In this document: positions 12,059 to 60,464 of the stretch, piece by piece | How positions within the stretch are numbered: the first letter of the stretch is position 1 | Layout of the letters: every line of letters begins with the position of its first letter | The notes under the pieces: model-generated | What the model was told of the DNA's origin: nothing | The model's database searches: none | What the model saw: the letters and a program-made list of their open reading frames with translations, nothing else | Source: Pseudomonas anguilliseptica | GTDB lineage: Bacteria; Pseudomonadota; Gammaproteobacteria; Pseudomonadales; Pseudomonadaceae | Length of the DNA: 64,000 bases | NCBI RefSeq assembly: GCF_900105355.1 | Contig: NZ_FNSC01000001.1 | Span: 310,001-374,000 of the forward strand | Reading direction: 5' to 3' | Program-made: the position numbers and the translations under genes

Positions 12059-13207
12059 TTAACGGCGCTTGGCCATGGCTTCGATAAAACGGTCGAACAG
12101 CGGCGCCACATCGGCTGGGCCGGGGCTCGCTTCGGGGTGACCCTGGAAGCTGAAGGCGTCCTTATCGGTCCGCTCGATACCCTGCAGGGAACCGTCGAAC
12201 AACGACTTGTGAATGGCGCGCACGTTGCTTGGCAGGCTGCTTTCGTCCACGGCAAAACCGTGGTTCTGGCTGGTGATCATCACCACGCCGGTTTTCAGGT
12301 CCTGCACCGGGTGGTTGGCTCCATGGTGGCCGTGGCCCATTTTCAGGGTCTTGGCACCGGAAGCCAGGGCCAACAGCTGGTGGCCAAGGCAGATACCGAA
12401 TACCGGGATCTCGGTTTCCAGCACATCCTTGATCGCCCGAATCGCGTAATCGCACGGCTCGGGATCGCCTGGGCCGTTGGACAGGAACACGCCATCGGGA
12501 TTCAGCGCCAGCACATCGCTAGCAGGCGTCTGCGCCGGCACGACGGTCACGCGGCAACCGCGCTCAACCAGCATGCGCAGGATGTTCAGCTTGACGCCGT
12601 AGTCGTAGGCCACCACATGGTATGGCAGCTCGCTGGCCGGGATTTGCGGATGACTGTCGTCTTTCAGATTCCACACACTGGAGCGCCATTCGTAACGCTC
12701 GGTGCAGCTGACCACCTTGGCCAGATCCATGCCTTTCAGGCCAGGAAAGCTACGTGCCAGCTCCAGCGCCTTCTCTTCGGTGGCGTCGTCGCCAACCAGA
12801 ATGCAACCGTTCTGCGAACCTTTCTCACGCAGGATGCGGGTCAGGCGGCGAGTGTCGATGCCGTCAATGGCGACGGTGCCGTTTTCCTTGAGGTATTCAT
12901 CCAGCGGCTGCTTGTTACGCCAGTTGCTGGAGGTCAGCGGCAGGTCACGCATAATCAGGCCAGCGGCCCATACGCGATTGGATTCGGCATCTTCCGGCGT
13001 GGTACCGGTATTGCCGATATGCGGATAGGTCAGGGTGACAATCTGCTGGGCATAGGAAGGATCGGTAAGGATTTCCTGATAGCCGGTCATGGCGGTGTTA
13101 AAAACCACCTCTCCAATAGTTTGGCCATCGGCACCGATGGCCTCGCCGCGAAAAATACTGCCATCAGCAAGAGCCAAAATGGCAGGTTTAAGGGCTGGCT
13201 TACTCAA
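12059..13207 (-). CDS. carA: Carbamoyl-phosphate synthase small (glutaminase) subunit
   Basis: CarA releases ammonia from glutamine and channels it to CarB. The protein is 382 residues. The class I amidotransferase domain in the C-terminal half has the nucleophile elbow [14 protein letters not shown], with the catalytic Cys, and GHPEASPGP with the partner His. The N-terminal domain has the STYRHHNPQ-equivalent region near [15 protein letters not shown]. The start codon is TTG, five bases after GGAGG. A strong terminator lies between dapB and carA, so carA needs its own promoter near 13210-13250. Confidence 0.97.
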
Positions 13208-13249
13208 GAAAACCTCCGGAAATCAAAACGTGAAGCAAACGCAGATTGT

Positions 13250-13290
13250 AAAAAAGCGGGATGACGTATCAACCGTCACCCCGCTTTTTT
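13250..13290. terminator. Bidirectional-looking terminator between dapB and carA
   Basis: AAAAAAGCGGG and CCCGCTTTTTT flank a stem extended by TGACG/CGTCA around a short loop. It has an A-run on one side and a T-run on the other, so it works in either orientation. On the minus strand it ends dapB transcription before carA. Confidence 0.85.
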
Positions 13291-13427
13291 ATCTGATTCA
13301 TTCTGCGCAACTTTAGTGGACACACTAAAGCAGAAAGCTTACAGGAAACTGCCTTTTCGGTCCACCGCCAGTTGCACTTGAGAGCCAGGCAAAAGGCACT
13401 CCTGCAACAGAATGCCCCACCCCAACA

Positions 13428-14273
<846 letters not shown>

Positions 14274-48844: not shown

Positions 48845-49012
48845 CTAATCATCCCGCGTCAGCACTTCCAGCAACTCAATCTCGAAGATCAGATTGGAGT
48901 GCGGTTTGATATGCGCGCCGAACTGGCGTTCGCCATAGCCCAGGTGCGACGGCACAAAGAGTTTGCGCTTGCCGCCGACTTTCATACCCATCAGGCCCTG
49001 GTCGCAACCTTT
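48845..49012 (-). pseudogene. FKBP-type peptidyl-prolyl isomerase, 3' fragment
   Basis: Only the last ~55 residues of a small FKBP remain: GCDQGLMGMKVGGKRKLFVP, then a segment including GYGERQFGAHIKPHSNL, and the end FEIELLEVLTRDD. The family reads G-W-D-Q-G at the start of this stretch; here it is GCDQG. Sequence upstream of 49012 is unrelated to FKBP, so the 5' half is missing. The break lies about 170 bp from the IS5-family element and marks the left side of the accessory region. Confidence 0.85.
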
Positions 49013-49185
49013 ATGTTTAGTAAACAGGATTAGCACCATCACACCCCAGCACCAACCCAGCTACGCCAGTAGCCCTTAAACCCATCGTTTGGCTACCTAC
49101 AGCAGCGTATAAAGCGTTTTCTCTCTTTACGGGTACATAGATAGCCCTAAGCACCTAGCACGCTAAAACAAGGCTGCTTACCTAA

Positions 49186-50376
49186 GGATGGTCTGAAGTA
49201 GCCATGTATTTCTGGCTGACTTCAGCCCCGCCGATTTTGAAAGCGGCAAATCGATCAAAAACGATCAGATTACCCATTCATTTCTGTGTTTTTAGCCGCC
49301 GCGAGTAGCTCGCGGCAGCCATTTCCCGCATTACAGGCGCACCTCTCCTGCATTGGTCAGTAAATGTCGGCGTGCCATCCACAGGTTCGACAGCGCGAAC
49401 AGCGTCACCAGTTGCGCCGTGTTCTTGGCCAAGCCACGGAAGCGTGTCTTTACATAACTGAACTGACGCTTGATCACCCGGAACGGGTGCTCAACCTTGG
49501 CGCGCACCTGGGCCTTGGCCTTCTCGATCTTGCGTTTGGCTTTGTACAGCGGGCTGCTCTTACCCAGCTTCTTATAGGTGCTGCGGCGGGCAGCAACCTG
49601 CCAGATCACCTCGCGCCCATCATGTTCGGGGCGCTTTTCGACGCCGGTATAACCCGCATCGGCGCACACCACGTTTTCCTCGCCGTGCAGCAACTTGTCG
49701 ACCTGAGTGACATCCGCCACGTTGGCCGCCGTGCCTACCACGCTGTGTACCAGCCCCGACTCGTCATCCACGCCAATGTGCGCCTTCATGCCGAAGTAGT
49801 ATTGGTTGCCCTTCTTGGCCTGGTGCATCTCTGGGTCGCGTTTGCCGTCCTTGTTCTTGGTCGAACTCGGCGCATTGATCAGCGTGGCATCGACGATGGT
49901 GCCTTGGCGCAACGACAGGCCACGGTCGCCAAGATAGCCATTGATGACGGCCAGGATGCCGGCAGCCAACTCATGTTTCTCCAGCAGACGACGGAAGTTG
50001 AGGATGGTGGTTTCGTCGGGGATACGTTCCAGACTCAGCCCGGCGAACTGCCGCAGGATAGTGGTCTCGTACAGCGCTTCTTCCATCGCCGGGTCGCTGT
50101 AGCCGAACCAGTTCTGCATCAGGTGCACACGTAGCATCGCCATCAGCGGATAGGCCGGCCGACCGCCTTCACCCTTGGGGTAATACGGTTCGATCAGTGC
50201 GATCAAACCCTTCCACGGCACCACCCGATCCATCTCGATCAGGAACAACTCTTTGCGGGTCTGCTTGCGTTTGCCGGCGTACTCGGCATCGGCGAAGGTC
50301 ATTTGCTTCATCGGAAAACTCGGCGGGTGGCGTCCGGGCATTTTGCCAAAATCAGGAAGTCTTATTCAGAGTTTCC
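49186..50376 (-). mobile_element. IS5-family insertion sequence, complete
   Basis: The 1191-bp element is bounded by imperfect inverted repeats (left GGATGGTCTGAAGTAG, right GGAAACTCTGAATAAG read inward). It is flanked by a 4-bp direct repeat CTAA at 49182-49185 and 50377-50380, the target duplication expected of the IS5 group. One intact transposase gene fills it. Confidence 0.92.
49331..50311 (-). CDS. IS5-family transposase
   Basis: This is a DDE transposase of 326 residues, starting MKQMTFADAEYAGKRKQTRK. The N-terminal DUF772-type region includes PAYPLMAMLRVHLMQNWFGY. The acidic triad is seen in order: Asp in VDATLINAPSSTKNKDG, Asp in VCADAGYTGVEKR and Glu in RAKVEHPFRVIKRQF. The length and lack of frameshifts suggest an active enzyme. 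It is the only gene of the flanking insertion sequence. Confidence 0.95.
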   Translation of the reverse strand: MKQMTFADAEYAGKRKQTRKELFLIEMDRVVPWKGLIALIEPYYPKGEGGRPAYPLMAMLRVHLMQNWFGYSDPAMEEALYETTILRQFAGLSLERIPDETTILNFRRLLEKHELAAGILAVINGYLGDRGLSLRQGTIVDATLINAPSSTKNKDGKRDPEMHQAKKGNQYYFGMKAHIGVDDESGLVHSVVGTAANVADVTQVDKLLHGEENVVCADAGYTGVEKRPEHDGREVIWQVAARRSTYKKLGKSSPLYKAKRKIEKAKAQVRAKVEHPFRVIKRQFSYVKTRFRGLAKNTAQLVTLFALSNLWMARRHLLTNAGEVRL

Positions 50377-50427
50377 CTAAGACCTCAAGAAAAGATTCAT
50401 GTTTTTACACAAAACGCAAGATTTATC

Positions 50428-50455
50428 TTGACATAAAAAACGGTTGCTTTATACT
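50428..50455 (+). promoter_or_regulatory. Sigma-70-like promoter
   Basis: TTGACA (50428-50433) and TATACT (50450-50455) are separated by 16 bp, just inside the accessory region. Confidence 0.6.
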
Positions 50456-50669
50456 GCTTCTCACCGCTTTTTGAAAACACCACAGATCGCAGCAGTGGTG
50501 CAGCCACCGCAGATACGCCTGACACACCGCATAGACAGTTAGATGAAGAAGATCAAAAGAAAAGAGCAACAGCGATACCGAGTCGTACACATAAGCTGTT
50601 GTTGGCTGTCGGTAATCAGCGAAAGCCTGTTAATTTTTAGAGCAGACTGATTAACCAAACAAATAACGA

Positions 50670-50698
50670 TTGACTGATCGATAGAAAAATGGTATAAT
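50670..50698 (+). promoter_or_regulatory. Strong sigma-70-like promoter
   Basis: TTGACT (50670-50675) and TATAAT (50693-50698) are separated by the optimal 17 bp. No gene starts within 500 bp downstream, so it should make a long leader or a small RNA. Confidence 0.75.
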
Positions 50699-50822
50699 AT
50701 AGCTATCAGGCAATCTAAAGTTTCGATCGCTGTAATTACTTATAAAGTAACCATATTTGCTCAACAGCAGTAAACATGGGGACTGTAGAGCATTCAGCGT
50801 ACTAGATTAAAAAATAAATCAA

Positions 50823-50858
50823 AAATAGCTTGACAAGGCTTCATAAATAGCTTGACAA
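50823..50858 (+). promoter_or_regulatory. Direct repeat AAATAGCTTGACAA
   Basis: The 14-bp word occurs at 50823-50836 and 50845-50858. The 22-bp spacing is two helical turns, and each copy contains a TTGACA -35-like hexamer. It looks like a pair of operator sites or tandem promoters. Confidence 0.6.
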
Positions 50859-51147
50859 AAATCCACTTTTACTGATAGAGTGGTAATAGTAAATGAGAGT
50901 TTTTATATAAACCTCTCAACCCGAATTAGCTACCTCCTCCCCTGCTAATACCAACTCACTCCGGTGAGTTTTGTTGTTCTCTGTTCTCTCGCTCCAAATC
51001 GCTGCTTCTCATTGTTCTATTTCTTGCAAATGTCAGTGTGCGGTTTACCTCGACTGCATCAAAAGCACTGACAACCCCCGCTGACTGCTGGCCTTCTTCT
51101 CCAGCACCAGCACTTTAAACCAAAGCTTTGTACAAAGCTTTGTTATG

Positions 51148-51211
51148 GCTCACACATATTCCTATTTGGGTTATTTCAGGCACAAGGGCTGGAATATGTG
51201 TTGAGCTTTTT
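51148..51211 (+). terminator. Long hairpin with T-run before the small-gene cluster
   Basis: GCTCACACATATTCC and GGAATATGTGTTGAGC pair over 15 bp with one bulge and enclose a 28-nt loop; TTTTT follows. It can act as a terminator or attenuator 55 bp before the first gene. Confidence 0.65.
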
Positions 51212-51265
51212 GTTTGCCAATTCTCAGAAACACTTACCTAAACCCAACTCATTAAGGAGTTCTTA

Positions 51266-51505
51266 ATGCGCATCATCCTGCGCCCGTGTTTATTCTGCGG
51301 GCATGATATAGAGACAAAGCGAAGTCACACGATACTTCACAGCACTTGCCACGTTCCACACCATCGCTTGAAAAACAAACTCTTCCCCGACATGCCACCA
51401 GAAGAATTTAATGCTTTCTGTCGTGCAGAGTTAAAGGAAGGCCGACACCCCAACCCTAAACATAAAATCAACCAAAAATCAGAGGAACAACAATATGGGA
51501 CGTAA
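51266..51505 (+). CDS. Small Cys/His-rich protein, possible zinc knuckle
   Basis: This is a 79-residue protein starting MRIILRPCLFCGHDIETKRS. CLFC followed by HSTCHVPHH could bind one metal ion. The C-terminal third is polar and Lys-rich. GGAG lies 8 nt before the ATG, and the gene overlaps the next one by 11 bp. It opens the AT-rich gene cluster. I do not recognise a family. Confidence 0.65.
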   Translation: MRIILRPCLFCGHDIETKRSHTILHSTCHVPHHRLKNKLFPDMPPEEFNAFCRAELKEGRHPNPKHKINQKSEEQQYGT

Positions 51506-51692
51506 GACCGTAGACCAGCCCAAAGGAAGTACAGAGCGCGTAAGGCGCTTCCGTAAGCGTAGAGCGCTAATTGATACCTTCGCCATCCCAGCCTATAGCA
51601 CCAACGACAACGCTTCACTGGAAGCATTACAGAGCTTTCTAGACAGCATTAACAAAGACACGCAGGAAGAGACAGTAGAAGCCAATCAATAA
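51495..51692 (+). CDS. Small basic protein, possible ribbon-helix-helix fold
   Basis: This is a 65-residue protein, MGRKTVDQPKGSTERVRRFR at the start. A basic N-terminus precedes DTFAIPAY, a possible beta strand, and two predicted helices (NASLEALQSFLDSINKD). The pattern resembles Arc/MetJ ribbon-helix-helix DNA-binding proteins and the small regulators of phages. GAGGA precedes the ATG, and the start overlaps the upstream gene. The fold is inferred from pattern only. Confidence 0.6.
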   Translation: MGRKTVDQPKGSTERVRRFRKRRALIDTFAIPAYSTNDNASLEALQSFLDSINKDTQEETVEANQ

Positions 51693-51807
51693 ACAATTGT
51701 TTGTTAAGTTTTTACCCCCTCTTTTCAACGATCACCCCAAAACCAATACAACCATAGCCACATTAGGCTAACGGCCTTTTACGGCCTAAATTCATAAGGA
51801 TTTAATA

Positions 51808-52026
51808 ATGAGTAGACGTTATCCAGATGGTACACGCAAACAATACCAATCGTTCCTACTACGTCTGAATGTAGATGTTATTCAACAATTGGATTTACCA
51901 AAAAGCTTTACCCGCCATAACAATGACCTTAGCTTTTTAGTGAATGAATTGCTATCCGGTTACGTCAATGAACTTATAGACATTAAAGAGAACTCAGACA
52001 ATGAAAAAGACGTTGTATCTGAATGA
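51808..52026 (+). CDS. Small ribbon-helix-helix-like protein
   Basis: This is a 72-residue protein. SFLLRLNVDVIQQLDLP forms a candidate beta strand and first helix, and NNDLSFLVNELLSGYVNEL the second helix, the order of a ribbon-helix-helix domain. AAGGA lies 8 nt before the ATG. The last 26 bp overlap the next small gene. A DNA-binding or antitoxin-like role is inferred. Confidence 0.65.
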   Translation: MSRRYPDGTRKQYQSFLLRLNVDVIQQLDLPKSFTRHNNDLSFLVNELLSGYVNELIDIKENSDNEKDVVSE

Positions 52027-52174
52027 CCGCGAATACGAAAAACAGACAGTTCTTTTGCAATTGGACAATCTGTTCTTTTTACAACGTGAAGCTTTGGCCA
52101 CTGGCAGCAGTGTTAGTGAAATTCTAAACACCATCATCACAAAACACTTTGAGGAGATTGAACAGAATGAGTGA
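52001..52174 (+). CDS. Very small ribbon-helix-helix-like protein
   Basis: This is a 57-residue protein beginning MKKTLYLNDREYEKQTVLLQ. A strand-like segment (TVLLQL) is followed by two helices (FFLQREALATG, SVSEILNTIITKHFEEI), again the ribbon-helix-helix order. It overlaps the preceding gene by 26 bp and the following one by 8 bp, so all three are probably translationally coupled. No strong ribosome-binding site is needed or seen. The family is not recognised. Confidence 0.55.
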   Translation: MKKTLYLNDREYEKQTVLLQLDNLFFLQREALATGSSVSEILNTIITKHFEEIEQNE

Positions 52175-52364
52175 TTATCTTGCCAACGGTGAAGAATGCC
52201 TATTAAAGATGGTACGACTTAGGATGAATCGAACCCTTGTAGAACGCTATGAAGCTATGGAGTCATCAAAACCCACCTTTTCCACTCTACTCAACTCGTT
52301 GCTTGAAGATTGGTTGGTTACAGAAGACCTCAAAGCAGAGTTTGAAAAGCTGAACAATGGCTAG
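52167..52364 (+). CDS. Small ribbon-helix-helix-like protein
   Basis: This is a 65-residue protein starting MSDYLANGEECLLKMVRLRM. MVRLRMNRTLVERYEAM and PTFSTLLNSLLEDWLVTED give the strand-helix-helix pattern again. GAGGAG lies 10 nt upstream, inside the overlapping gene. The start at 52167 was chosen over an in-frame codon at 52149 for this reason. The role is unknown. Confidence 0.6.
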   Translation: MSDYLANGEECLLKMVRLRMNRTLVERYEAMESSKPTFSTLLNSLLEDWLVTEDLKAEFEKLNNG

Positions 52365-52438
52365 TATTAAAACTTGTACATTTAACTCACTCCAGCCCTT
52401 TAAACATGCGACTTCCAACAATTTAAGGAGTTATCAAA

Positions 52439-52618
52439 ATGCGCTTAGCCATTACAGGAAAAGCAGAAGAACAGTTCCTCAAGCTACTTGATGAGACAGG
52501 GGTAAATAATCCCACACACCTCAACAATCTACTTATCAGCTTTATCAGCACTCATCATTCCCAGGAGGCAATTACTTATGCCCAACATCGAGACAAACAC
52601 AAACAAGAAGAAGCTTGA
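52439..52618 (+). CDS. Very small ribbon-helix-helix-like protein
   Basis: This is a 59-residue protein starting MRLAITGKAEEQFLKLLDET. A short strand (RLAITG) and two helices (AEEQFLKLLDETG, PTHLNNLLISFISTH) again suggest a ribbon-helix-helix protein. AAGGAG lies 8 nt before the ATG. The last 41 bp overlap the zinc-ribbon gene. It is the fourth such gene in 0.8 kb. Confidence 0.6.
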   Translation: MRLAITGKAEEQFLKLLDETGVNNPTHLNNLLISFISTHHSQEAITYAQHRDKHKQEEA

Positions 52619-53315
52619 ACGCATCTACACTTGTTCAGTATGCAGCACCAGCTACCCTACCACCCGCTACAGCAATACGCACTATTGCAGCCCTTCCTGC
52701 CGTTCTAAAGCCCGCAGTGACAAGACAGCAGCTAAAAGAATCGAGAAGATCCCTTACAGTGACAACTGGTTATGGATTGCTCAGGAATGCCGTAGAGCTG
52801 GCACAGCAGAAGTCTTGCAAGACGTAGACTTAGAAAAACTGTTTGAAATCTACAATCGCCGTTATAAGTGCTACGGCTGGGACTCAGACAAGAAGCAAAG
52901 TAAATTTCACCTTTGCCATATATCCCCCGTATCTGGTAATGGCTCTGTAGGTCTTCTACACCATCAAAACCTTTTTATTGGCGGGAGTCTTCCTAACCAA
53001 GTACAGGGTACAAAGTATTATAAAGGTGCCGGCTTAAGCATCCGTAGCATCAAGCTCTTACCAAAATGGCGAGTCGCCAAGGAAGATTCAGACAAGCAAG
53101 TCTTTGCAACGATTCAAACATATTTGGGAAGCAAGCTCACCGACTACGCCAAGGCCAACCCCATCAGAAAGGCCAACCGTTTTGTTATAGCTGACCGCAT
53201 ATTCAAGCTTGATAATAATACTCTTCCTTTGTCTGATCTTCGCAAGATGAGTACAAGCAACCTAATGCAGCTAGAGGCCGATTTGTTAAACAAGTCTGTA
53301 TCAGCATTAAGTTAA
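52578..53315 (+). CDS. Zinc-ribbon protein with an HNH-like motif
   Basis: This is a 245-residue protein. The N-terminus has CSVCSTSYPTTRYSNTHYC and then CRSK, a treble-clef zinc-ribbon arrangement. The central stretch LCHISPVSGNGSVGLLHHQN, with a later N-Q in SLPNQVQGTKYY, resembles a His-Me finger (HNH) nuclease core with His, Asn and Asn in order. AGGAGG lies 10 nt upstream. Near the 3' end a GTTAAAC heptamer (53285-53291) sits in frame, and the -1 frame from there is open for another ~220 codons. Nuclease function is inferred, not shown. Confidence 0.6.
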   Translation: MPNIETNTNKKKLERIYTCSVCSTSYPTTRYSNTHYCSPSCRSKARSDKTAAKRIEKIPYSDNWLWIAQECRRAGTAEVLQDVDLEKLFEIYNRRYKCYGWDSDKKQSKFHLCHISPVSGNGSVGLLHHQNLFIGGSLPNQVQGTKYYKGAGLSIRSIKLLPKWRVAKEDSDKQVFATIQTYLGSKLTDYAKANPIRKANRFVIADRIFKLDNNTLPLSDLRKMSTSNLMQLEADLLNKSVSALS

Positions 53316-53962
53316 CAGCGCGCCGCTCTCTGTCGGTTTATCTTGAAGAGCTTGAACGCTTCGCCAGCTACAACACAGAAAAGAAAGATGATTATCTCTT
53401 TGTAGCTGCTGCTGTTCGCATTCTTACTCAGTGCATGGTGCAGCAACAGGAACAAGGATTGGCAGACGTTGCACAGCGTACCTTTCGTAGTTATTTGACA
53501 TTTAAACCGCTAACCAGAAAGCAAGGTAAGGCAATTAATAAGCTACGTGATTTTATCGGATTCACAGCCTTCTCTACGCTACAAGGTGCAGAAGTCGATA
53601 GAGCGCTGATTACAAACACTATCCGCAGTTATCTGCACGTAGATAGCCTGTCTGTAATCGAGCATATGAAGCCAGATTTTAATGACCAGTTCACCGATGC
53701 CGACGACCTTAATCAACAGCTTGAACAGTTCTACAGCCTGTCACAGAAAGTGAAAGAAGCATTTGCTACTGTCGGCATGCTGGACACTGCCACTTTGTCA
53801 CGTATCAGCAATAACGAAAAAGCAGAGAGCTTCAAACAGACGTACATGCAAGACCTGAGCTGTAGTGAATACCTGAACTATGATTTCAGCGACTACAACA
53901 TTCAAGTAGAGGAAGATTACATTCATCGCCCTACGCACTCCCCAACTTGGCTGCCATTTTAA
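53306..53962 (+). CDS. Protein of unknown function, start unclear (possible -1 frameshift product)
   Basis: The open frame gives IKLTARRSLSVYLEELERFA, then DDYLFVAAAVRILTQ, and runs to THSPTWLPF (about 218 residues). The frame is open from 53237, and coding-like sequence extends upstream of its first ATG (53435), which has no ribosome-binding site. No ATG, GTG or TTG start is available earlier in this frame. The frame is -1 to the upstream zinc-ribbon gene, which ends at 53315, so expression by frameshifting or from a rare start (ATT/CTG) must be considered. The protein is mostly helical and acidic, with no recognised domain. Confidence 0.55.
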   Translation: MKLTARRSLSVYLEELERFASYNTEKKDDYLFVAAAVRILTQCMVQQQEQGLADVAQRTFRSYLTFKPLTRKQGKAINKLRDFIGFTAFSTLQGAEVDRALITNTIRSYLHVDSLSVIEHMKPDFNDQFTDADDLNQQLEQFYSLSQKVKEAFATVGMLDTATLSRISNNEKAESFKQTYMQDLSCSEYLNYDFSDYNIQVEEDYIHRPTHSPTWLPF

Positions 53963-54066
53963 GTGCAATGCTTAATCAATAGGTAGTTATACAAATATGT
54001 ACAGCATCACACTTTAAGCCTACTCCCATAAGGCTTTCAGACAACCAACAATCAATAAAACAGAAT

Positions 54067-54086
54067 TTGATTCAATCCTGAATCAA
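54067..54086 (+). promoter_or_regulatory. Perfect hairpin before the tandem repeat
   Basis: TTGATTCA/TGAATCAA pairs over 8 bp around ATCC, and its last base is the A of an ATG that opens the repeat-coded frame. Confidence 0.6.
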
Positions 54087-54160
54087 TGTCCGGGCTTTGT
54101 GCATCCTGTGCATCCTGTGCATCCTGTGCATCCTGTGCATCCTGTGCATCCTGTGCATAG
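54086..54160 (+). CDS. Possible leader peptide of Cys-Ala-Ser repeats
   Basis: ATG at 54086 opens a 24-codon frame reading MSGL, then six CAS units and CA, ending in TAG right after the repeat. Seven of 24 codons are cysteine. No clear ribosome-binding site is seen; the upstream hairpin could mask or replace one. It is 31 bp before the next gene. The frame may be a by-product of the DNA repeat. Confidence 0.3.
   Translation: MSGLCASCASCASCASCASCASCA
54099..54158 (+). repeat. Tandem 9-bp repeat (GTGCATCCT) x 6 plus a partial copy
   Basis: Six identical, adjacent copies of GTGCATCCT run from 54099 to 54152, followed by GTGCAT. It lies between two gene groups of the AT-rich element and could be an iteron-like protein-binding array, a slippage-prone tract or a coded repeat. 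Confidence 0.95.
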
Positions 54161-54190
54161 CCCATTTTCAATAAAGAAGAGGTAACAAAA

Positions 54191-54697
54191 ATGAACGCAG
54201 TGAACAAGCAGCACGTACAACTCCCACGCACTCTGGACGCCAGCCAACTAGCCCAGCTTCAAGCACAAGCCCGCCAGAAGCTTCTAGAGGGTGTTTATAA
54301 CGGCCATCAGTGGGTATACCCCTGTGCAGACCGCCACAGCTTCCAAGGCTTTGATTTAGCCCTTGAATACACCCAACAGTCAGTAAAGGAAGGCAAAGAG
54401 CTTTACCCACATGATCCCGCTGTAAATAGTGGCTTCTACTATGGGGTTAGCTTCTGGAAGCCTAAAGGAGAAATTGAATCCATCCTTGAAAAGAGTGACT
54501 TGGAAGTAGAACAAAAACTGAAAGAAGAGATTGAAGCATTCAACGCCGCCCAGGTGGAATTGCTCACCCGGCAATTGGTAGAACAAGAGCTGAACAAGGA
54601 ACGTAAGAAAGAAGATGACCGCCTAACAGCGATTCAAGCCAAAGCAGCAGCTACAGCAGCCAAACACATTCAAGACCAACTGCAAGGAAGTAAATAA
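54191..54697 (+). CDS. Hypothetical protein with a C-terminal coiled coil
   Basis: This is a 168-residue protein starting MNAVNKQHVQLPRTLDASQL. The middle has an aromatic stretch (GHQWVYPCADRHSFQGFDLA). The C-terminal half is strongly charged and helical (residues ~100-160, including LLTRQLVEQELNKERKKEDD), a probable coiled coil. AGAGG lies 8 nt before the ATG. It ends 1 bp before the next gene. I do not recognise it; its place before a tape-measure-like gene would fit a tail chaperone, but there is no sequence proof. Confidence 0.65.
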   Translation: MNAVNKQHVQLPRTLDASQLAQLQAQARQKLLEGVYNGHQWVYPCADRHSFQGFDLALEYTQQSVKEGKELYPHDPAVNSGFYYGVSFWKPKGEIESILEKSDLEVEQKLKEEIEAFNAAQVELLTRQLVEQELNKERKKEDDRLTAIQAKAAATAAKHIQDQLQGSK

Positions 54698-54698
54698 T

Positions 54699-54905
54699 AT
54701 GTCTAAAGTAATGGATATTCTCAAAGCTAAACACAAGCCAACTGAATACGCAGCAGAACAAGAAGCAGCAGACAAGAAATTTGCCGAAACCTTGGCATTT
54801 GTTGAGGGAGTGAAAGCAGGACTTGAGCAAGTAGAGAAGTCTAAGACTAAGCCATTATTCGTTAGTGATGATTCCGCCAAAGGCTTCAAGCCAGCTAACA
54901 AGTAG
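54699..54905 (+). CDS. Small charged hypothetical protein
   Basis: This is a 68-residue Lys/Glu/Ala-rich protein (MSKVMDILKAKHKPTEYAAE), with a single predicted helix over residues ~15-48. It follows the coiled-coil gene by one base, with AAGGAAG just upstream of its ATG. A terminator-like hairpin follows. The family is not recognised. Confidence 0.6.
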   Translation: MSKVMDILKAKHKPTEYAAEQEAADKKFAETLAFVEGVKAGLEQVEKSKTKPLFVSDDSAKGFKPANK

Positions 54906-54915
54906 TCTAAAGATA

Positions 54916-54957
54916 GGGGCTGTGTGCTTGCACACGCTTGAAATACAGCCCCCTTTT
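54916..54957 (+). terminator. Terminator or attenuator before the tape-measure-like gene
   Basis: GGGGCTGT (54916-54923) pairs with ACAGCCCC (54945-54952), and a short inner GTGC/GCAC helix and four T follow. It lies 20 bp before the next start, so it may only attenuate. Confidence 0.65.
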
Positions 54958-56466
54958 CACAACAGAGAATAAATATATGAAAATAGCGTCATTTTTCGCA
55001 TCCATCGGTTTGCAGATTCAAAAGAACGATGTTCGCAACGTAGATAAAACACTGTCTAATCTTGAAAAGCGTTTTGCAAAATTCAACAAGTCAGTGACCA
55101 AAGATTTAAACCTTAACCTCAAGAATCTAAAACTCCCCGCCTTAAAATTCAAAGCCTCTTTCAATAAATTGCAGCTACAGAAAGAAGCTCAAACATCAGT
55201 CAATCGTGTTAGTAAGCTTCTAAGCATCAAAATTGATCGCTTTGAGATTAACGAGCCAAAGTTACAAAAACAGCTTGCTGGTATTTTTCAACGGGCCACA
55301 AACGCCAACCGTCTAAACCTTCGAACAATTCAAGGCAGTGCAGGCGGATCAAACCCCTATCACCCTGGACGACTGACAGCAGCCATACAGAACTATGGCA
55401 ACCCTGCCCATATGAATCTCCCCGGCATGAATAGCTTGGCTGGTATCAGCCGCTTTGGCCTTCCTATGGGTGCTGGCTTAGGTGTTGGGGCATTAGCTGG
55501 GGGCGCTGCTGGTGTAGTGGGTGGCGGTATTGTTGCTGGTCAGCAAGGCGCTGTAGCTCTCGGTAATGACCAAGCCCTGAAAGAGAACATGCGTGCTCAG
55601 TTGGACGTAGCCAGCGGCCAGTCATCCCGAGCAGGTAAAGACGCACAGAATAAACGCTTCTTTGACTTAGCAAATAGTACAGGCACAAAAGCATCTGAAC
55701 TAATCACTCCCTATGCTCAGATGATGAAAACACTGAACGCTATGGGTTTGAATACAGAAAAGAGTTTTGATCTTTACAAAGATATGTCCCTCTTTGCTAA
55801 AGGCACAGGTGCTAGTGGTGAGCAACAAGGCCGAGCCGCCTACGCTATCGGCCAAATCTACGGGAAAGGATACGTGGCTCGGGAAGAGCTTCAGCTCCAG
55901 CTGTCAGACGCCCTCCCGAGCTTTAAGAAGTATTTGATGCAAGTGTTTGAGAAAGAGACAGGGAAGAAAGGCGGTGAAGCATTCGACAAAGCTCTGACTA
56001 ATAAACAAATCACTACAACCATGATGGAGCAGGCATTCAAGCTTGCCGCAGCATCCAACATGAAGAACGTACAGCAGTACAGCAACACAGTGCTAGGCGA
56101 GCAGGCACGGCTTGAGAATATGAAGCTAGAAGAGCAGATGGGCCGTACCCTGTCAGACGATGTAATCCCCGGTATGCGTAACTATACGAAAGCTCAGGGG
56201 GAGCTATACGAAGCCCTAAAGCCAATGCGTAATCAGTTCTATGACTTGAGTGCAAGCATTCTTAATTTCAGCGCCAGTATGCTCAGAGCCTCTACACCAT
56301 TCGTTAAGACCGTAGGCGACCTAGGCACACCAACAATTCCAAAGATTGCTTCTGCAACATCAGGCAATCGTCCGTGGTGGGATACATCAGGCGGTGGTGC
56401 AGGCCCAATGAGCACAGAACGCTATGGAATGTTCGCTAATCGGGATAAAGGTGGCGGTTGCAGGAG

Positions 56467-57551
56467 CTGAGTGCAACACGGTTATTGAATTGACGCTGGC
56501 GCATCATGCCGCATAGCCATGGCTTCTTGCATTACTTCGCTCATGACTTCGATCGGGCACTTGAAGTCGAAGCGCTTACGCGGCCGCATATTCAGTTGCA
56601 GTGCAATGGCATCCAACTGTTCTTGGCTGTGTCCCGACAAGTCTGTGCCCTTGGGCAGGTACTGGCGAATGAGGCCGTTGATGTTTTCGTTGCTGCCGCG
56701 CTGCCAGGGGCTGTGTGGGTCGCAGAAGTAGATCGCTATGCCGGTTCTCTGGGTGATCTCGGCGTGCCGCGCCATCTCCCGGCCCTGGTCGTAGGTCATG
56801 CTCTTACGCATCGCCAGCGGCATACGATTGAGTGCGGCGCTGAAACCTTCCATCGCCGAGGTCGCCGTCGCATCGTTCATCTTGATCAGCATCAGGTAGC
56901 CACTGGTGCGTTCTACCAAGGTGCCGACCGACGAGGCGTTGGCCTTGCCCTTGATAAGGTCGCCCTCCCAGTGGCCCGGCATCAGGCGGTCTTCAATCTC
57001 CGGCGGGCGCACGTGAATACTGACCAGCTCCGGGAGCTGGCCACGTCGATCCACGCCGCCAGAGCGCGGCCTGCGCGTCGTCTTGCTTTGGCGCAGGCAG
57101 ATAATCAGCTCCTTGCGCAGCTCGCCGACCGGCAAGGCATAGATCGCGGTATAGATCGTCTCGCGACAGACGTAGGCATCTCTGAGGCTGGGTATGTTCA
57201 TGCTGCGCAGCTTGCCGGCAATCTGCTCGGGAGACAAACGCTCACGCAGCATATGGGTCACCAACTCGAAGCGTTCACTACCGGGCAGCAGCTTTCGCTT
57301 GGGCCGGCAGACTTGGCGCCGGGCTCTCATCTGCTGCTGCGCCGCACGGGCCGAGTAACGACCGCAGACCTCTCGATTACGGCGCAACTCGCGACTGATA
57401 GTCGAGGGGGATCGGTTGATCAGGTGGGCAATCTTGCGCAGGCTAAAGCCTTGGGCATGACCGATTTGAATAGTGGCGCGCTCTTCAACGCTGAGTTCGG
57501 AATAAGACATAGGGGCAGCACCGTATCGGAAAGATCAGGTGTTGCACTCAG
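56467..57551 (-). mobile_element. IS30-family insertion sequence
   Basis: The 1085-bp element has terminal inverted repeats CTGAGTGCAACAC (left 56467-56479, right 57539-57551). It carries one intact transposase and splits the tape-measure-like gene. No matching direct repeat is visible in the flanks. Confidence 0.92.
56482..57510 (-). CDS. IS30-family transposase
   Basis: This is a DDE transposase of 342 residues. The N-terminal helix-turn-helix is SYSELSVEERATIQIGHAQG, followed by KIAHLINRSPSTISRELRRN. The catalytic residues lie in GHWEGDLIKGK (Asp), MTYDQGREMARH (Asp) and GSNENINGLIRQYLPKGTDL (Glu). The length is normal and the frame intact. It is encoded opposite to the gene it interrupts. 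Confidence 0.95.
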   Translation of the reverse strand: MSYSELSVEERATIQIGHAQGFSLRKIAHLINRSPSTISRELRRNREVCGRYSARAAQQQMRARRQVCRPKRKLLPGSERFELVTHMLRERLSPEQIAGKLRSMNIPSLRDAYVCRETIYTAIYALPVGELRKELIICLRQSKTTRRPRSGGVDRRGQLPELVSIHVRPPEIEDRLMPGHWEGDLIKGKANASSVGTLVERTSGYLMLIKMNDATATSAMEGFSAALNRMPLAMRKSMTYDQGREMARHAEITQRTGIAIYFCDPHSPWQRGSNENINGLIRQYLPKGTDLSGHSQEQLDAIALQLNMRPRKRFDFKCPIEVMSEVMQEAMAMRHDAPASIQ

Positions 57552-57914
57552 TTTTTGCCGCCGCCGGTATTGGCCCAGCCACTCAAGCGGGTGTTGATCG
57601 TTTTAAATCCCTGTCTGAATCTTTCAAGCCTCAGCTTGGACCCTTGCCAATGGATAGCAAAGAAAGCGCACTACAGGGCATCCGAGAGGGAATGGCTCAA
57701 CGCATCACTAACAACAACGCAACAGCAAACATTACAGTGAACAACACATTTAATGGTGTTGATCCGGGTGAGGCTGAACAGAATATGGTGGAAGTCAGCA
57801 AGCGGGTATGGCGTGACAGCTTCAAAGCCACGATTACAGAGAGCTTACAGAACTACCCCCAGACAGAATAAACAGTATCAAATGTGGCTAAAAACGTCAC
57901 TTTAGTCACGAATA

Positions 57915-57945
57915 TAAGCCTCTGAAATATGGGGCTTTCTTTTTC
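57915..57945 (+). terminator. Terminator after the tape-measure-like gene
   Basis: AAGCC and GGCTT pair around an AT-rich loop with a TTTCTTTTT tail, about 45 bp after the stop. Confidence 0.6.
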
Positions 57946-58073
57946 ATCAAGCTTACAACCTGCTTATTCACTGACTTCTATGTATCTGGTGTTAAGCCGT
58001 TTGTTGCCCCTCACGTCAACTTTTTACAACAAGTCTTTTAATTTCAATCACTCATTCGAGAATTATTATCAAA

Positions 58074-58340
58074 ATGCTAGACCAACTGAATAGATACATT
58101 CCAGCTATTACACTTTCACTTCTAATAATTTCACTCTATATGGTCAACAATGACGCCAGATACACGCAGAACTTGATAACCGAGAGCTTCAAGACTCAAG
58201 CCTCCCAACAGCAACAGCTGTTCACCCTGGAGCAGAGAGACACAGAGCTAGGTGTAAGGATTGTTCGTCTTGAGTCTGCAATCTGTAGCCAGCTACCACG
58301 TCAGCGCACAGTGCAATGCCCAATAACCCTAAACCCGTAG
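58074..58340 (+). CDS. Small membrane-anchored hypothetical protein
   Basis: This is an 88-residue protein. Residues ~8-25 (YIPAITLSLLIISLYMV) form one membrane helix, followed by a polar helical region (QASQQQQLFTLEQRD) and a C-terminal pair of cysteines. This is an N-in, C-out layout. Similar short proteins serve as spanins or holins in phages, but no specific match is recognised. The ribosome-binding site is weak. It stands alone between terminators. Confidence 0.5.
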   Translation: MLDQLNRYIPAITLSLLIISLYMVNNDARYTQNLITESFKTQASQQQQLFTLEQRDTELGVRIVRLESAICSQLPRQRTVQCPITLNP

Positions 58341-58436
58341 TTTCCTGACTACAGCCTCCTATCATTTATCTCTACTTGTATGAGAGGAGCGAGAATCTAC
58401 AAACTCAACTATCACATTCCCTATTTTCAAAAGGTT

Positions 58437-58453
58437 AATGATAGGTTATCATT
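58437..58453. promoter_or_regulatory. Palindrome upstream of the recombinase gene
   Basis: AATGATAGGTTATCATT is a perfect 7-bp inverted repeat with a GGT centre, 36 bp before the recombinase start. The inner word TGATAGGTTATC recurs inside the recombinase gene at 58698-58709. It may be a recombination site or an autoregulatory operator. Confidence 0.5.
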
Positions 58454-58488
58454 GCTCTATCAAATTAATCTCTAAAGGATAGCCAGCC

Positions 58489-59109
58489 ATGAAAGCCCAT
58501 CTTTACCTGAGAGCATCGACCAAGGATCAGGATTCTCTGCGCGCTCTTTCCACTCTTCAGGCATTCGCAGCCAAGACAGGGTTAGAGGTGGCTGGTGTGT
58601 ATGCAGAGAATGTCAGCGGTACAAAACTTGATCGTCCTGAACTATTCCGTCTGTTGGAGTCAGCCGAGCAAGGAGATGTTCTGTTGTGTGAGTCAGTTGA
58701 TAGGTTATCTCGCCTATCTCAAGATGACTGGGAATCTCTCAAGGGTACTATTAAGGTGAAGGGGTTACGTCTGGTAGTAGATGACCTTCCCACCTCTCAC
58801 CAACTTGTCACTGATAAGGGGATCACTGGTCAGGTGATGATGGTAATCAACAATATGCTGATTGATTTGATGGCCACAATGGCAAGGTTAGATCAGGAAA
58901 AGCGTGTAGAACGTATCCGTCAGGGTTTAGAGAACAAGCGTATTGCAGACCCTGAGTGGAAACCTACGGGAAAGAAGAAAAACACAGCCAAACATAATCT
59001 TGTTCTGTCTCACCTATCAAACCCCACCTTGACTATGGATCAGGTCGCTAAGTTATCAGGCGTCGGCGTTGCCACTGTGTACCGTATCAAGGCATCACAG
59101 CAGGTATAG
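58489..59109 (+). CDS. Small serine recombinase (resolvase/invertase family)
   Basis: This 206-residue recombinase cuts and rejoins DNA through a 5'-phosphoserine. The catalytic core is HLYLRASTKDQDSLRALSTL, with Ser10 and the flanking Arg8. SGTKLDRPELFRLL and ESVDRLSRLSQDDW carry the other active-site Arg and Asp residues. The long E-helix region (GQVMMVINNMLIDLMATMAR) precedes the C-terminal helix-turn-helix, TMDQVAKLSGVGVATVYRIK. AAGGA lies upstream. It could resolve or invert DNA of the element; whether it also integrates the element is unknown. Confidence 0.92.
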   Translation: MKAHLYLRASTKDQDSLRALSTLQAFAAKTGLEVAGVYAENVSGTKLDRPELFRLLESAEQGDVLLCESVDRLSRLSQDDWESLKGTIKVKGLRLVVDDLPTSHQLVTDKGITGQVMMVINNMLIDLMATMARLDQEKRVERIRQGLENKRIADPEWKPTGKKKNTAKHNLVLSHLSNPTLTMDQVAKLSGVGVATVYRIKASQQV

Positions 59110-59149
59110 GCACACCCATACACACCACCTACATACACCACACACATAC

Positions 59150-59178
59150 AGCCTCGCCTCAACAGCGGGGCTTTTCTT
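59150..59178 (+). terminator. Terminator after the serine recombinase
   Basis: AGCCTCGC and GCGGGGCT pair (one T-G wobble) around a 7-nt loop, followed by TTTCTTT. Confidence 0.75.
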
Positions 59179-59461
59179 TGCCTGCTAGATAGAGAGTCAC
59201 TTAGCAAAATACCCCTCTAAACAAGCGCTCTATACATAACCTATAGGGTAGTATGGTCACACCTCTTAAACACGCTTATACGCGCTCACAGAGGCTTATA
59301 TAGGCTATGCACATACATACCAATGCCTAGCTGTGTATATGTAGTGACGATATTTCTAGCAGTAGTGGGGCCGTGCTACTGGTGAGCACGTACCTGCTTA
59401 TCACATCGGCTATATATCCAGTGTAATCAGCAGAATGCAAACGGATATTTTCCAGACATAG

Positions 59462-59492
59462 AAAAACAAAGGCCACCATTTAGGCAGCCTTT
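59462..59492 (-). terminator. Terminator on the minus strand
   Basis: On the minus strand AAAGGC and GCCTTT enclose a 13-nt loop and are followed by GTTTTT. It ends the csrA-side transcription unit. Confidence 0.6.
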
Positions 59493-59526
59493 CAGACGGG
59501 GGTAGGTGGTTTGCTGTAGCAGGGGC

Positions 59527-59841
59527 TTACAGGGTTTTAGTGTACAACCAGACCAGCACAACCACGCCAATGACAAACAACGCCTTACGCTTTATCGAGT
59601 CGTGTCGTTCTCTGTCTGCTTTTACGTGCTGGTAAGCCTGCACGTCATCCATGCCTTGAATTTTATAGTTCAGCACGTGATTCATTTGGCCTTGAATGCG
59701 CTTGTTGTGGTTGCTGTTGTTGAACGCCACGATCACCTAGACGATCACCCAAAAGCCCATTGTGATGAGGCTCAAGATCAGATGCAGAATGTGGTTGGTG
59801 GTCTTCTTCTGGCTATTGAGTATAAAAATCTGTTCGTTCAT
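59527..59841 (-). pseudogene. Small two-helix membrane protein with an internal amber codon
   Basis: From the ATG at 59841 the frame reads MNEQIFILNSQKKTTNHILH and a first membrane helix (LILSLITMGFWVIV), then TAG at 59737-59739 (codon 35). It continues in the same frame with VIVAFNNSNHNKRI, then a hydrophilic middle and a second helix (ALFVIGVVVLVWLYT). The context W-V-I-V-stop-V-I-V suggests a lost Trp (TGG to TAG). Proteins with this plan occur in phages and mobile elements, but no function is known. A GTG right after the stop could restart a 69-residue product. Confidence 0.65.
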
Positions 59842-59943
59842 GCCGTACTTCCCTGTTCACATGGCGTTGATTAGCTCAGATATTAGCAGCGACCCAGCGG
59901 CCAGCACGCCTTGTATCAAGCGCCCTGTTTTCTCGGCGGGGGG

Positions 59944-60150
59944 TTAGGTCAGAAACTCCAATTCGTCACGCAGGATTAGAACGCTGTCAGGTGCTTCTAT
60001 GGCAATCCTGACTTTGCCTTCTCTGGTGACTTCGGAAATGGTGACGGTGATGCCCTTGCGGATCAGGTCGCTGATGTTGTCTAGATGCTCGGGCCTGATA
60101 GTCAGCCGAAGCCCTTGGTCTGCCTTCCTTGTCAGCATCAGTCTACCCAC
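59944..60150 (-). CDS. csrA: CsrA/RsmA-family RNA-binding regulator
   Basis: CsrA proteins are dimeric post-transcriptional regulators that bind GGA-containing hairpins. The GTG at 60150, four bases after GGAGAG, gives 68 residues, MGRLMLTRKADQGLRLTIRP. This keeps the first beta strand (R-L-M-L-T-R matches the canonical M-L-I-L-T-R); the later ATG would cut it. The second RNA-binding surface is kept in VLILRDELEF, with the conserved Arg. The rest diverges from chromosomal RsmA, as in paralogues carried by mobile elements. Its leader CAAGGAG could allow autoregulation. Confidence 0.9.
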   Translation of the reverse strand: MGRLMLTRKADQGLRLTIRPEHLDNISDLIRKGITVTISEVTREGKVRIAIEAPDSVLILRDELEFLT

Positions 60151-60464
60151 GGTTCTCTCCTTGATTTGTGGTTGCTAGGGAGAGATTAGACAGTTTCAGG
60201 CAGGACGCCAGCCGGCAGATTTGGGTAGAAAATATGGGTAGAAATGCTGTGTAGCAATTTGTTTATATTATTGATTTATATAGACTTTTTTAAATAAAGA
60301 TAAAAACACAGCTTGTACATCGAAGTCTCCGCCGGCAAGACTGATAAAAACAGCTCGATAATGATGCCACACAATAATGGCATTCTGCCTTATTGGGTAT
60401 TCGCGCACCCCATCACACTTGCACCCTATGACCGGGCAATGTGCTGTGTGTTCAACGCATTAGC
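60151..60464. other. Right edge of the AT-rich region
   Basis: The stretch has two copies of TGGGTAGAAA (60222-60231 and 60235-60244), a very AT-rich block at 60250-60310, and then GC-rich DNA. The change of base composition near 60310 is the likely right boundary of the accessory region. I find no direct repeat matching the left side. A 74-codon frame at 60313 was rejected as a gene. Confidence 0.5.

Follow-up and report, generated by a model that had tools for sequence, protein, structure and literature searches.

Why does an AT-rich block of about 10 kb in a Pseudomonas genome carry a phage tape-measure gene when no gene for a phage head can be recognised around it? The block lies at positions 50380-60319 of the window, a 64,000-nucleotide stretch of Pseudomonas anguilliseptica (assembly GCF_900105355.1, contig NZ_FNSC01000001.1, positions 310,001 to 374,000), and a related short piece (49046-49182) lies left of an IS5-type insertion. 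A first-pass annotation had proposed a satellite that remodels the tail of a helper phage and, as alternatives, a decayed phage-plasmid or the end of a larger element cut by insertion sequence (IS) activity. The region is probably the IS-damaged right part of a satellite that was integrated at an attachment (att) site between yqfO and purL, and whose family would be packaged by a helper phage while supplying its own tape measure to a chimeric tail.

The foreign composition described at first pass was reproduced: GC content was 44.6% in the element parts excluding the IS30-type insertion, against 60.6% in the left flank and 62.4% in the right flank. The tape-measure gene matched PF20155 (TMP_3) at 52 bits (cut-off 41). 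Four PHROG families of tape measures were matched as well, all below E 1e-7, the best at 6.8e-11. The small serine recombinase, the CsrA paralogue and the zinc/HNH-like protein of the annotation were likewise recovered by profile searches (Table 1). Two insertion sequences, which we take to belong to the IS5 and IS30 families, had been overlooked. The first overlies the left end of the element (49183-50379) and the second splits the tape-measure gene (approximately 56453-57566). Further IS5-type copies were found on contig C2 of the same genome, as were IS30-type copies at 99.8% identity (blastn).

A second, partial copy of the element lies on C2 and matches window positions 50762-53682 at 99% identity. 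It was also missed at first pass and adjoins an IS-broken tyrosine integrase and yqfO. The integrase end of the element is on this 206-kb contig and not in the window. An exact 20-bp repeat, the att core ATAAAAACACAGCTTGTACA, was located at window 60300-60319 and at the yqfO start, at the junction on C2; the core had escaped the annotation, which had placed the right end very close to it at 60310. The comparison with element-free relatives proposed there confirmed this position. yqfO and purL were adjacent, within one 3.3-kb locus free of the element, in five of five relatives (best matches of 18 other yqfO loci), which makes the right border exact. The exact core word was present in one of the five (L084), where the C2-side and window-side alignments meet. 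The shared core and the empty sites give an ancestral order of yqfO, element, purL, and flanking att repeats together with an empty site in relatives define a site-specific integrative element. The half with the integrase now lies on C2, and the window has kept the right half. The decay and the cutting by IS activity proposed at first pass were borne out for this copy.

yqfO gave one match per genome in 19 genomes searched (own included), and the match in the own genome was on C2. Its neighbours there (C2 38000-54500, L010 and L011) also flank yqfO in two other loci (L055 and L057). A stretch of chromosome therefore seems to have been relocated to a second replicon or contig, with the break made at the element by IS activity. 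A search of a plasmid collection with the C2 stretch returned just two small matches. At window 48845-49045, a gene for an FKBP-type isomerase (by eye), present as its C-terminal half, stops at about 49045 against element-like DNA; elsewhere in the genome this half matched solely copies at 43-48% identity. The truncated gene may be what a second related element left behind. As for the copy in the window, it is very probably dead, a fossil of a family that looks alive from its sequences.

Relatives stem mostly from whole-genome searches. The genus search covered 398 genomes with the tape measure (E <= 0.001) and the family search 398 genomes with a tape-measure alignment (E <= 1e-15); each matched 10 genomes, own included. 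Six of the 56 genomes in the genus of G567 had a match (E <= 1e-15), and five of these had been counted already. G579 was excluded; its tape measure of 1703 amino acids (aa) matched partly and lay among long open reading frames (ORFs) that were phage-like by eye. A search with the tape-measure protein gave 20 relatives, including Metapseudomonas and Stutzerimonas. All 18 other loci were retrieved and read (~20 kb each). The family thus defined comprises these 18 further loci in the same bacterial family, in Pseudomonas and relatives, and GenBank record MT836130.1. Its shared plan is an integrase, a zinc-ribbon protein, a protein termed p168 and a tape measure, usually with a resolvase.

A tape-measure hidden Markov model (HMM) matched 18 of 18 loci; nine supplied its rows, and the other nine matched at 7.6e-34 to 3.5e-13. 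For p168, an HMM built from nine loci gave E-values of 7.9e-23 to 2.7e-4 in the remaining nine and of 8.3e-11 in the window. The E-values of both HMMs refer to small local sets, and the p168 search was run with filters off. Tape measures were 725-768 aa long in the genus loci and 554-656 aa in the other loci. Integrases were of tyrosine type in 12 loci and of large serine type in six. A small serine recombinase was present in nine of nine loci of the first set and in at least four of nine of the second. The replication slot varies: it holds a DUF5906 helicase type (L041, L057), an initiator-like protein with DUF6945 or helix-turn-helix domains, or an F8-type protein, whose gene stands before the tape measure in the window, L056, L058, L070 and L072 and behind it in L071, L073, L074, L076 and L078. 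A short membrane-like protein (by eye) is encoded at most three genes behind the tape measure in the 18 loci. An HMM of its family F7 missed those of the nine genus loci, L056 and the window, and the genes can be called alike in position and look, with homology not established.

Tape measure and p168 are under purifying selection in the pairs tested: the ratio of nonsynonymous to synonymous rates (dN/dS) was 0.07-0.34 in four tape-measure pairs and 0.05-0.23 in four p168 pairs, all above 62% identity, with dS values of 0.7-2.0, some near saturation. An apparently complete copy is present in Stutzerimonas kunmingensis 28M-8, and the copy in 7850S has a transposon-like insertion at the replication gene (by eye). 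Queried at E 1e-5 with the DNA of the window, its tape measure or close relatives, the plasmid and phage collections returned no match. MT836130.1, a 12,681-bp record from human faeces filed without annotation as 'Bacteriophage sp.', matched the profiles of p168, tape measure and zinc-ribbon protein as well as the window small serine recombinase. By eye it has a large serine recombinase and, at its end, a piece of a chromosomal gene. By these profile matches it is a further family member filed as a bacteriophage; as an apparent host gene is included, it is no proof of packaging.

The shared gene set, in an order that varies in part, recurs elsewhere within intact boundaries, for which the annotation had asked to look: eleven of the 18 loci lie between att repeats. 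Of the 12 loci with a tyrosine integrase, 11 were flanked by repeats of at least 15 bp; of the six with a large serine integrase, none was, as expected for the two enzyme types. The targets were the signal recognition particle (SRP) RNA gene in L059, L061 and L075 (Rfam match) and, via the same repeat, L060; tRNA-Ser in L056, L071, L074 and L078; and, besides the window element, the yqfO start in L055 and L057. In L058 a word similar to the tRNA-Ser repeat was present, yet ARAGORN found no tRNA. An apparent second integrase gene lies directly behind the right end of this element (12979-14205, oriented), perhaps of a tandem island in the same site. Ten att-to-att lengths ranged from 11,174 to 12,166 bp (mean 11,656, standard deviation (SD) 326). 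Not in this set are the six serine-type loci, L072, which lacks a repeat, and L055, whose 13,272 bp include what by eye is an IS66-type insertion; L071 was entered at 11,929 bp, or 12,081 bp with the repeat inside the tRNA. The size range suggests, and does not prove, a packaging limit.

Profile searches (PHROG, Pfam) of the window element proteins turned up no convincing match to a head, portal, terminase or lysis protein, in agreement with the annotation, and the sole candidates were at E 0.018 and 0.2. The former, a match of the recombinase to a terminase PHROG family, was taken as chance. Among 242 proteins of the 18 loci, no capsid, portal, terminase or lysin family was matched in Pfam at E <= 0.001. 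For the first nine loci, 203 ORFs were reduced to 166 by dropping tape measures, IS, host and short ORFs, and 116 of the 150 longest were scanned; the remaining 34, mostly on the opposite strand, were judged spurious. For the other nine, all 126 ORFs of at least 70 aa were scanned, tape measures dropped. The scans returned 19 and 17 Pfam families, respectively: recombinases, integrases, replication and DNA-binding domains, Dit_like (2), Rap1a (3), Abi_alpha (1) and a response regulator, as well as two eukaryotic coiled-coil or membrane-traffic names. No head or packaging family was among the 25 of 53 PHROG families listed for the first set; the two matches named as tail proteins were two Dit-like proteins, and an endolysin-named family listed there was a second, weaker match of these.

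These data bear on the possibility of a decayed prophage or phage-plasmid that has kept a tape-measure gene by chance. The window copy, broken by two IS elements and with its F8 gene in two pieces, would suit such decay. In all 18 relatives, however, p168 and the tape measure are retained, the latter unbroken, and eleven of these loci are bounded by att repeats; the tested pairs are under purifying selection, and a head gene was found in none of the 18. Their similar sizes and their shared lack of head genes disfavour the phage-plasmid of the first-pass annotation, and none of the ~20-kb loci showed the block inside a full prophage. We regard decay as very improbable.

In L058 and L061 the gene immediately before the tape measure encodes a Dit_like protein (PF21821, 1.2e-15 and 1.5e-13). 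Among 50,697 phage records, the L061 Dit matched 227 at E <= 0.01, of which 226 were Pseudomonas phages; the best match was vB_PsaM_M1 (35.9%, 4e-34), and the best 20 of the 227 were 89-101 kb long. The L061 tape measure matched 53 records (48 Pseudomonas), and the best 20 of these were mostly Pseudomonas phages of 84-102 kb, with Achromobacter, Mesorhizobium and the faecal record also present. In all six of the matched phages that were retrieved, which we take to be lytic, the tape measure is followed by a gene alignable with the satellite Dit (21-34% identity to L058). Their tape measures are 692-785 aa long, longer than in the window's own group. A profile comparison of satellite and six phage tape measures gave a probability of 99.8 (E 5.5e-30) over 381 columns. 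A tail sheath is annotated in three of the six phages: OP714164, NC_022974 (filed as Nankokuvirus) and OR575930. From these matches we infer a large Pseudomonas myophage as the putative helper. In OP714164.2 (L103 7884-9962) the tape-measure slot is annotated as 'nucleotide kinase'; the product aligns with related tape measures (27% to CHA_P1), and the annotation looks wrong.

Under the satellite reading, the element would excise through its tyrosine or large serine integrase, replicate with its own replication-type gene and resolve multimers with the small recombinase. A helper phage would then package it. The tape measure would come from the element, as would a Dit-like tail-tip protein in some members; the helper tail tube would thus polymerise around the satellite ruler and yield a chimeric tail. 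This mechanism is proposed by analogy with the Vibrio cholerae satellites discussed below, where tail chimerism was shown, because the present family has a similarly unusual choice of genes, with a ruler, sometimes a tail-tip gene and no head found. Of the first-pass proposal of tail remodelling, the conserved integrative family with a tape measure and without recognised head genes held up; helper dependence, replication, packaging and chimeric tails are read from gene content and stay conditional. A wider form of the satellite reading, that widespread Pseudomonadaceae satellites parasitise myophages of ~84-102 kb with their own tape measure and sometimes their own tail-tip protein, has about an even chance of being right.

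Several results weigh against this reading. Helper, induction, packaging and particle are known for no member; no relative was found in IMG/VR viral contigs with degenerate patterns from the tape-measure and p168 alignments. Dit is present in just two of 18 loci. Tape measures of the TMP_3 type are also present elsewhere. For the L070 tape measure, the matches with the best scores were Aeromonas phages (~61 kb) and a 55-kb Salmonella phage, and just 58 of 282 records were Pseudomonas; P0001, the sequence closest to the window, matched weakly, at best to Erwinia phages of 147 kb at 1e-3. With such diverse matches the helper may differ between members, and tape-measure matches outside L061, which point to no single helper clade, count slightly against the wider form of the reading. 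When the tape measure is subtracted, the SD of the ten element lengths falls to just 142 bp, and tape-measure length accounts for most of the size difference (r 0.93), which is why the narrow range is no stronger indication of a packaging limit. The tape-measure structure model was poor (mean pLDDT 50.7). The AlphaFold2 (AF2) model of p168 shows an alpha/beta domain and a long helix (mean pLDDT 90.3, pTM 0.67), and its gene occupies the slot upstream of the tape measure where a chaperone would sit. A role as tail assembly chaperone was unsupported, with an hhalign probability of 0.1 against six phage chaperones; fold searches gave no match at E <= 0.001, and the L060 p168 gave no match to phages at E <= 1.

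The same tail genes could serve defence. In that case the element would be a mobile anti-phage island that is not packaged, and its tape measure, with Dit where present, would act as a dominant-negative decoy that spoils the tails of infecting phages. Tape measure and Dit do resemble those of Pseudomonas phages, an Abi_alpha protein is encoded in one of nine genus loci, and tail assembly is a known defence target (PMC11364771). Against this, PADLOC assigned no defence family at E <= 1e-5 to 116 proteins of nine elements, and the narrow size range, replication-type genes and resolvases exceed the needs of a pure defence island. We consider a decoy unlikely. Cargo varies among L070-L078, with one Abi_alpha and three Rap1a-like proteins, which suggests an accessory-gene slot.

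A further reading dispenses with phages: an autonomous, plasmid-like integrative element might have recruited the TMP_3 protein to a non-tail job such as membrane or DNA translocation. It would account for the replication-initiator-like and DUF5906 helicase proteins, for the small resolvase in nine of nine and at least four of nine loci, and for the membrane-like protein behind the tape measure. It accounts poorly for a tail protein beside the tape measure in two members and for tape measures alignable to those of phages across 381 columns, and no relaxase or transfer family appeared in the Pfam listings of the 242 proteins. This reading is quite unlikely, and the satellite integrated at yqfO-purL is retained as the best explanation.

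Table 1. Features of the window element and its left border, with the evidence for each.
Feature	Positions	Strand	Evidence
75%-identical (49046-49164) to DNA directly behind C2 integrase stop; abuts truncated FKBP-like gene (by eye)	49046..49182	.	blastn, sequence
IS5-type insertion sequence, transposase 49331-50341	49183..50379	-	Pfam DDE_Tnp_1 3.5e-37
AT-rich leader without clear genes, left part of element	50380..51265	.	sequence, GC profile, blastn
Zinc-ribbon protein, 79 aa, family F6	51266..51505	+	HMM 1.3e-13 against relatives; by eye; DUF2116 treble-clef matches in relatives
Small protein, 65 aa	51495..51692	+	ORF; no convincing family match
Small regulator-like protein, 72 aa	51808..52026	+	ORF, also in C2 copy
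Small regulator-like protein, 57 aa, family F9	52001..52174	+	F9 HMM 7.2e-14
Small protein, 71 aa	52149..52364	+	ORF
Small regulator-like protein, 59 aa, family F1 (weak)	52439..52618	+	HMM 0.0033
Zinc-finger/HNH-like protein F8, first piece, in replication-protein slot	52578..53315	+	phrog_1271 HNH 4.5e-5; F8 HMM 1e-73
F8 second piece, separate ORF	53435..53962	+	F8 HMM 5.7e-15
6.8 perfect copies of 9-bp TGTGCATCC, just upstream of p168	54098..54158	.	Tandem Repeats Finder
p168, family hallmark, upstream of tape measure	54191..54697	+	p168 HMM, AF2 model
Small protein, 68 aa, in p168/tape-measure gap	54699..54905	+	ORF
Tape-measure gene, first part	54938..56452	+	PF20155 9.7e-14; 93% identical to P0001
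IS30-type insertion sequence, transposase 56482-57510, within tape-measure gene	56453..57566	-	HTH_38 and rve
Tape-measure gene, C-terminal part	57567..57871	+	tape-measure HMM 4.2e-10 on ORF 57539-57871
Short membrane-anchored coil-like protein (by eye), slot behind tape measure	58074..58340	+	position as in relatives; F7 HMM: no match
Small serine recombinase, resolvase/invertase type	58489..59109	+	PF00239 1.3e-21; 72% identical to L040 12342-12944
Small membrane-like protein, cargo	59527..59736	-	phmmer 6e-15 to L061 12789-13103 (oriented)
CsrA paralogue, cargo of window copy	59944..60150	-	PF02599 6.1e-9
Right attachment core, element/chromosome border before purL	60300..60319	.	20-bp exact repeat; empty site in relatives

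Both F8 pieces, whose division into two ORFs had not been noticed at first pass, matched the profile of a single protein of 441-456 aa in relatives. The start of the tape measure was suggested at 54977 by alignment with relatives. The TGTGCATCC repeats are possibly regulatory or origin repeats (iterons). An F9 member in L041 (7050-7217) gave a weak ribbon-helix-helix match (PF01402, 0.0031). CsrA was rejected as a family core gene; phmmer (E <= 0.1) detected it in none of the 18 other loci.

Known mobile elements were compared with the family by gene content or by published description. It differs from prophages in that head, packaging and lysis genes were not found in the window element or the 18 loci. 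The P4 marker set consists of alpha primase, psu, delta and sid. An integrase, and a DUF5906/VapE-like helicase in two of nine loci, recall P4-like satellites; no other P4 marker function was among the Pfam matches, which in the genus loci covered ORFs of at least 70 aa. Phage-inducible chromosomal islands (PICIs) are marked by a terminase small subunit and an AlpA/Stl-type regulator. The family resembles them as a small integrated satellite with an integrase and a replication gene, and its size falls within their ~10-15 kb (PMC11364771). Unlike them, it has no terminase small subunit among the 242 proteins (Pfam, E <= 0.001). No Pfam family of an AlpA/Stl-type regulator was matched in the scans, with the same 70-aa limit in the genus loci. 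Putative tmp genes are described in some capsid-forming PICIs (cf-PICIs; PMC12987554); the Pfam listings of the present family contain no capsid gene cluster of its own, unlike cf-PICIs. AH14b, a 16.8-kb element of an Antarctic Pseudomonas, resembles it as a Pseudomonas element without structural genes and with proposed helper dependence; by description, AH14b differs in having a primase and a gene for tail assembly protein I, with no tape measure in the consulted passages of PMC4936722.

The closest parallel is with the phage-inducible chromosomal island-like elements (PLEs) of V. cholerae, which were likened to the family by description, PLE genes not being compared directly. RepA, TcaP and CapR are PLE-specific genes. 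SviR is another, according to PMC12987554 (2026), in which PLEs are named as the first family of satellites known to exchange parts of a phage tail for their own. There, PLEs are described as carrying tmp and tac, and some bhuB; in PLE11 the satellite's own tape measure and hub protein take the place of the ICP1 ones, tails are ~10 nm shorter, and loss of tmp cuts transduction by ~99.9%. Like PLEs as there described, the present elements are integrated and encode a tape measure that differs from that of the putative helper, joined in some members by a tail-tip gene; their candidate helpers include large myophages. They differ in host and in size (~11.7 kb here). p168 has a fitting position but showed no homology to the six phage chaperones compared, which makes it a weak point of the apparent likeness to the PLE module, its chaperone part lacking support. 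The baseplate hub gene belongs to part of the PLEs and Dit_like to two of 18 loci here. No link of the family to PLE, PICI or P4 was found, the comparison with PLE being one of descriptions. In the searched literature, which had few subscription journals and no preprints, there was no recognisable description of the element family and no other proven case of tail-part replacement by a satellite. If the satellite reading is true, this would be a second satellite family that replaces tail parts, in a different bacterial order and with no sequence link found, and chimeric-tail piracy would have arisen, or spread, well outside Vibrio. With apparently complete members in named strains, exact att sites and testable helper candidates, the family would make the question that PLEs raise, why a satellite should have its own tail ruler, directly testable.

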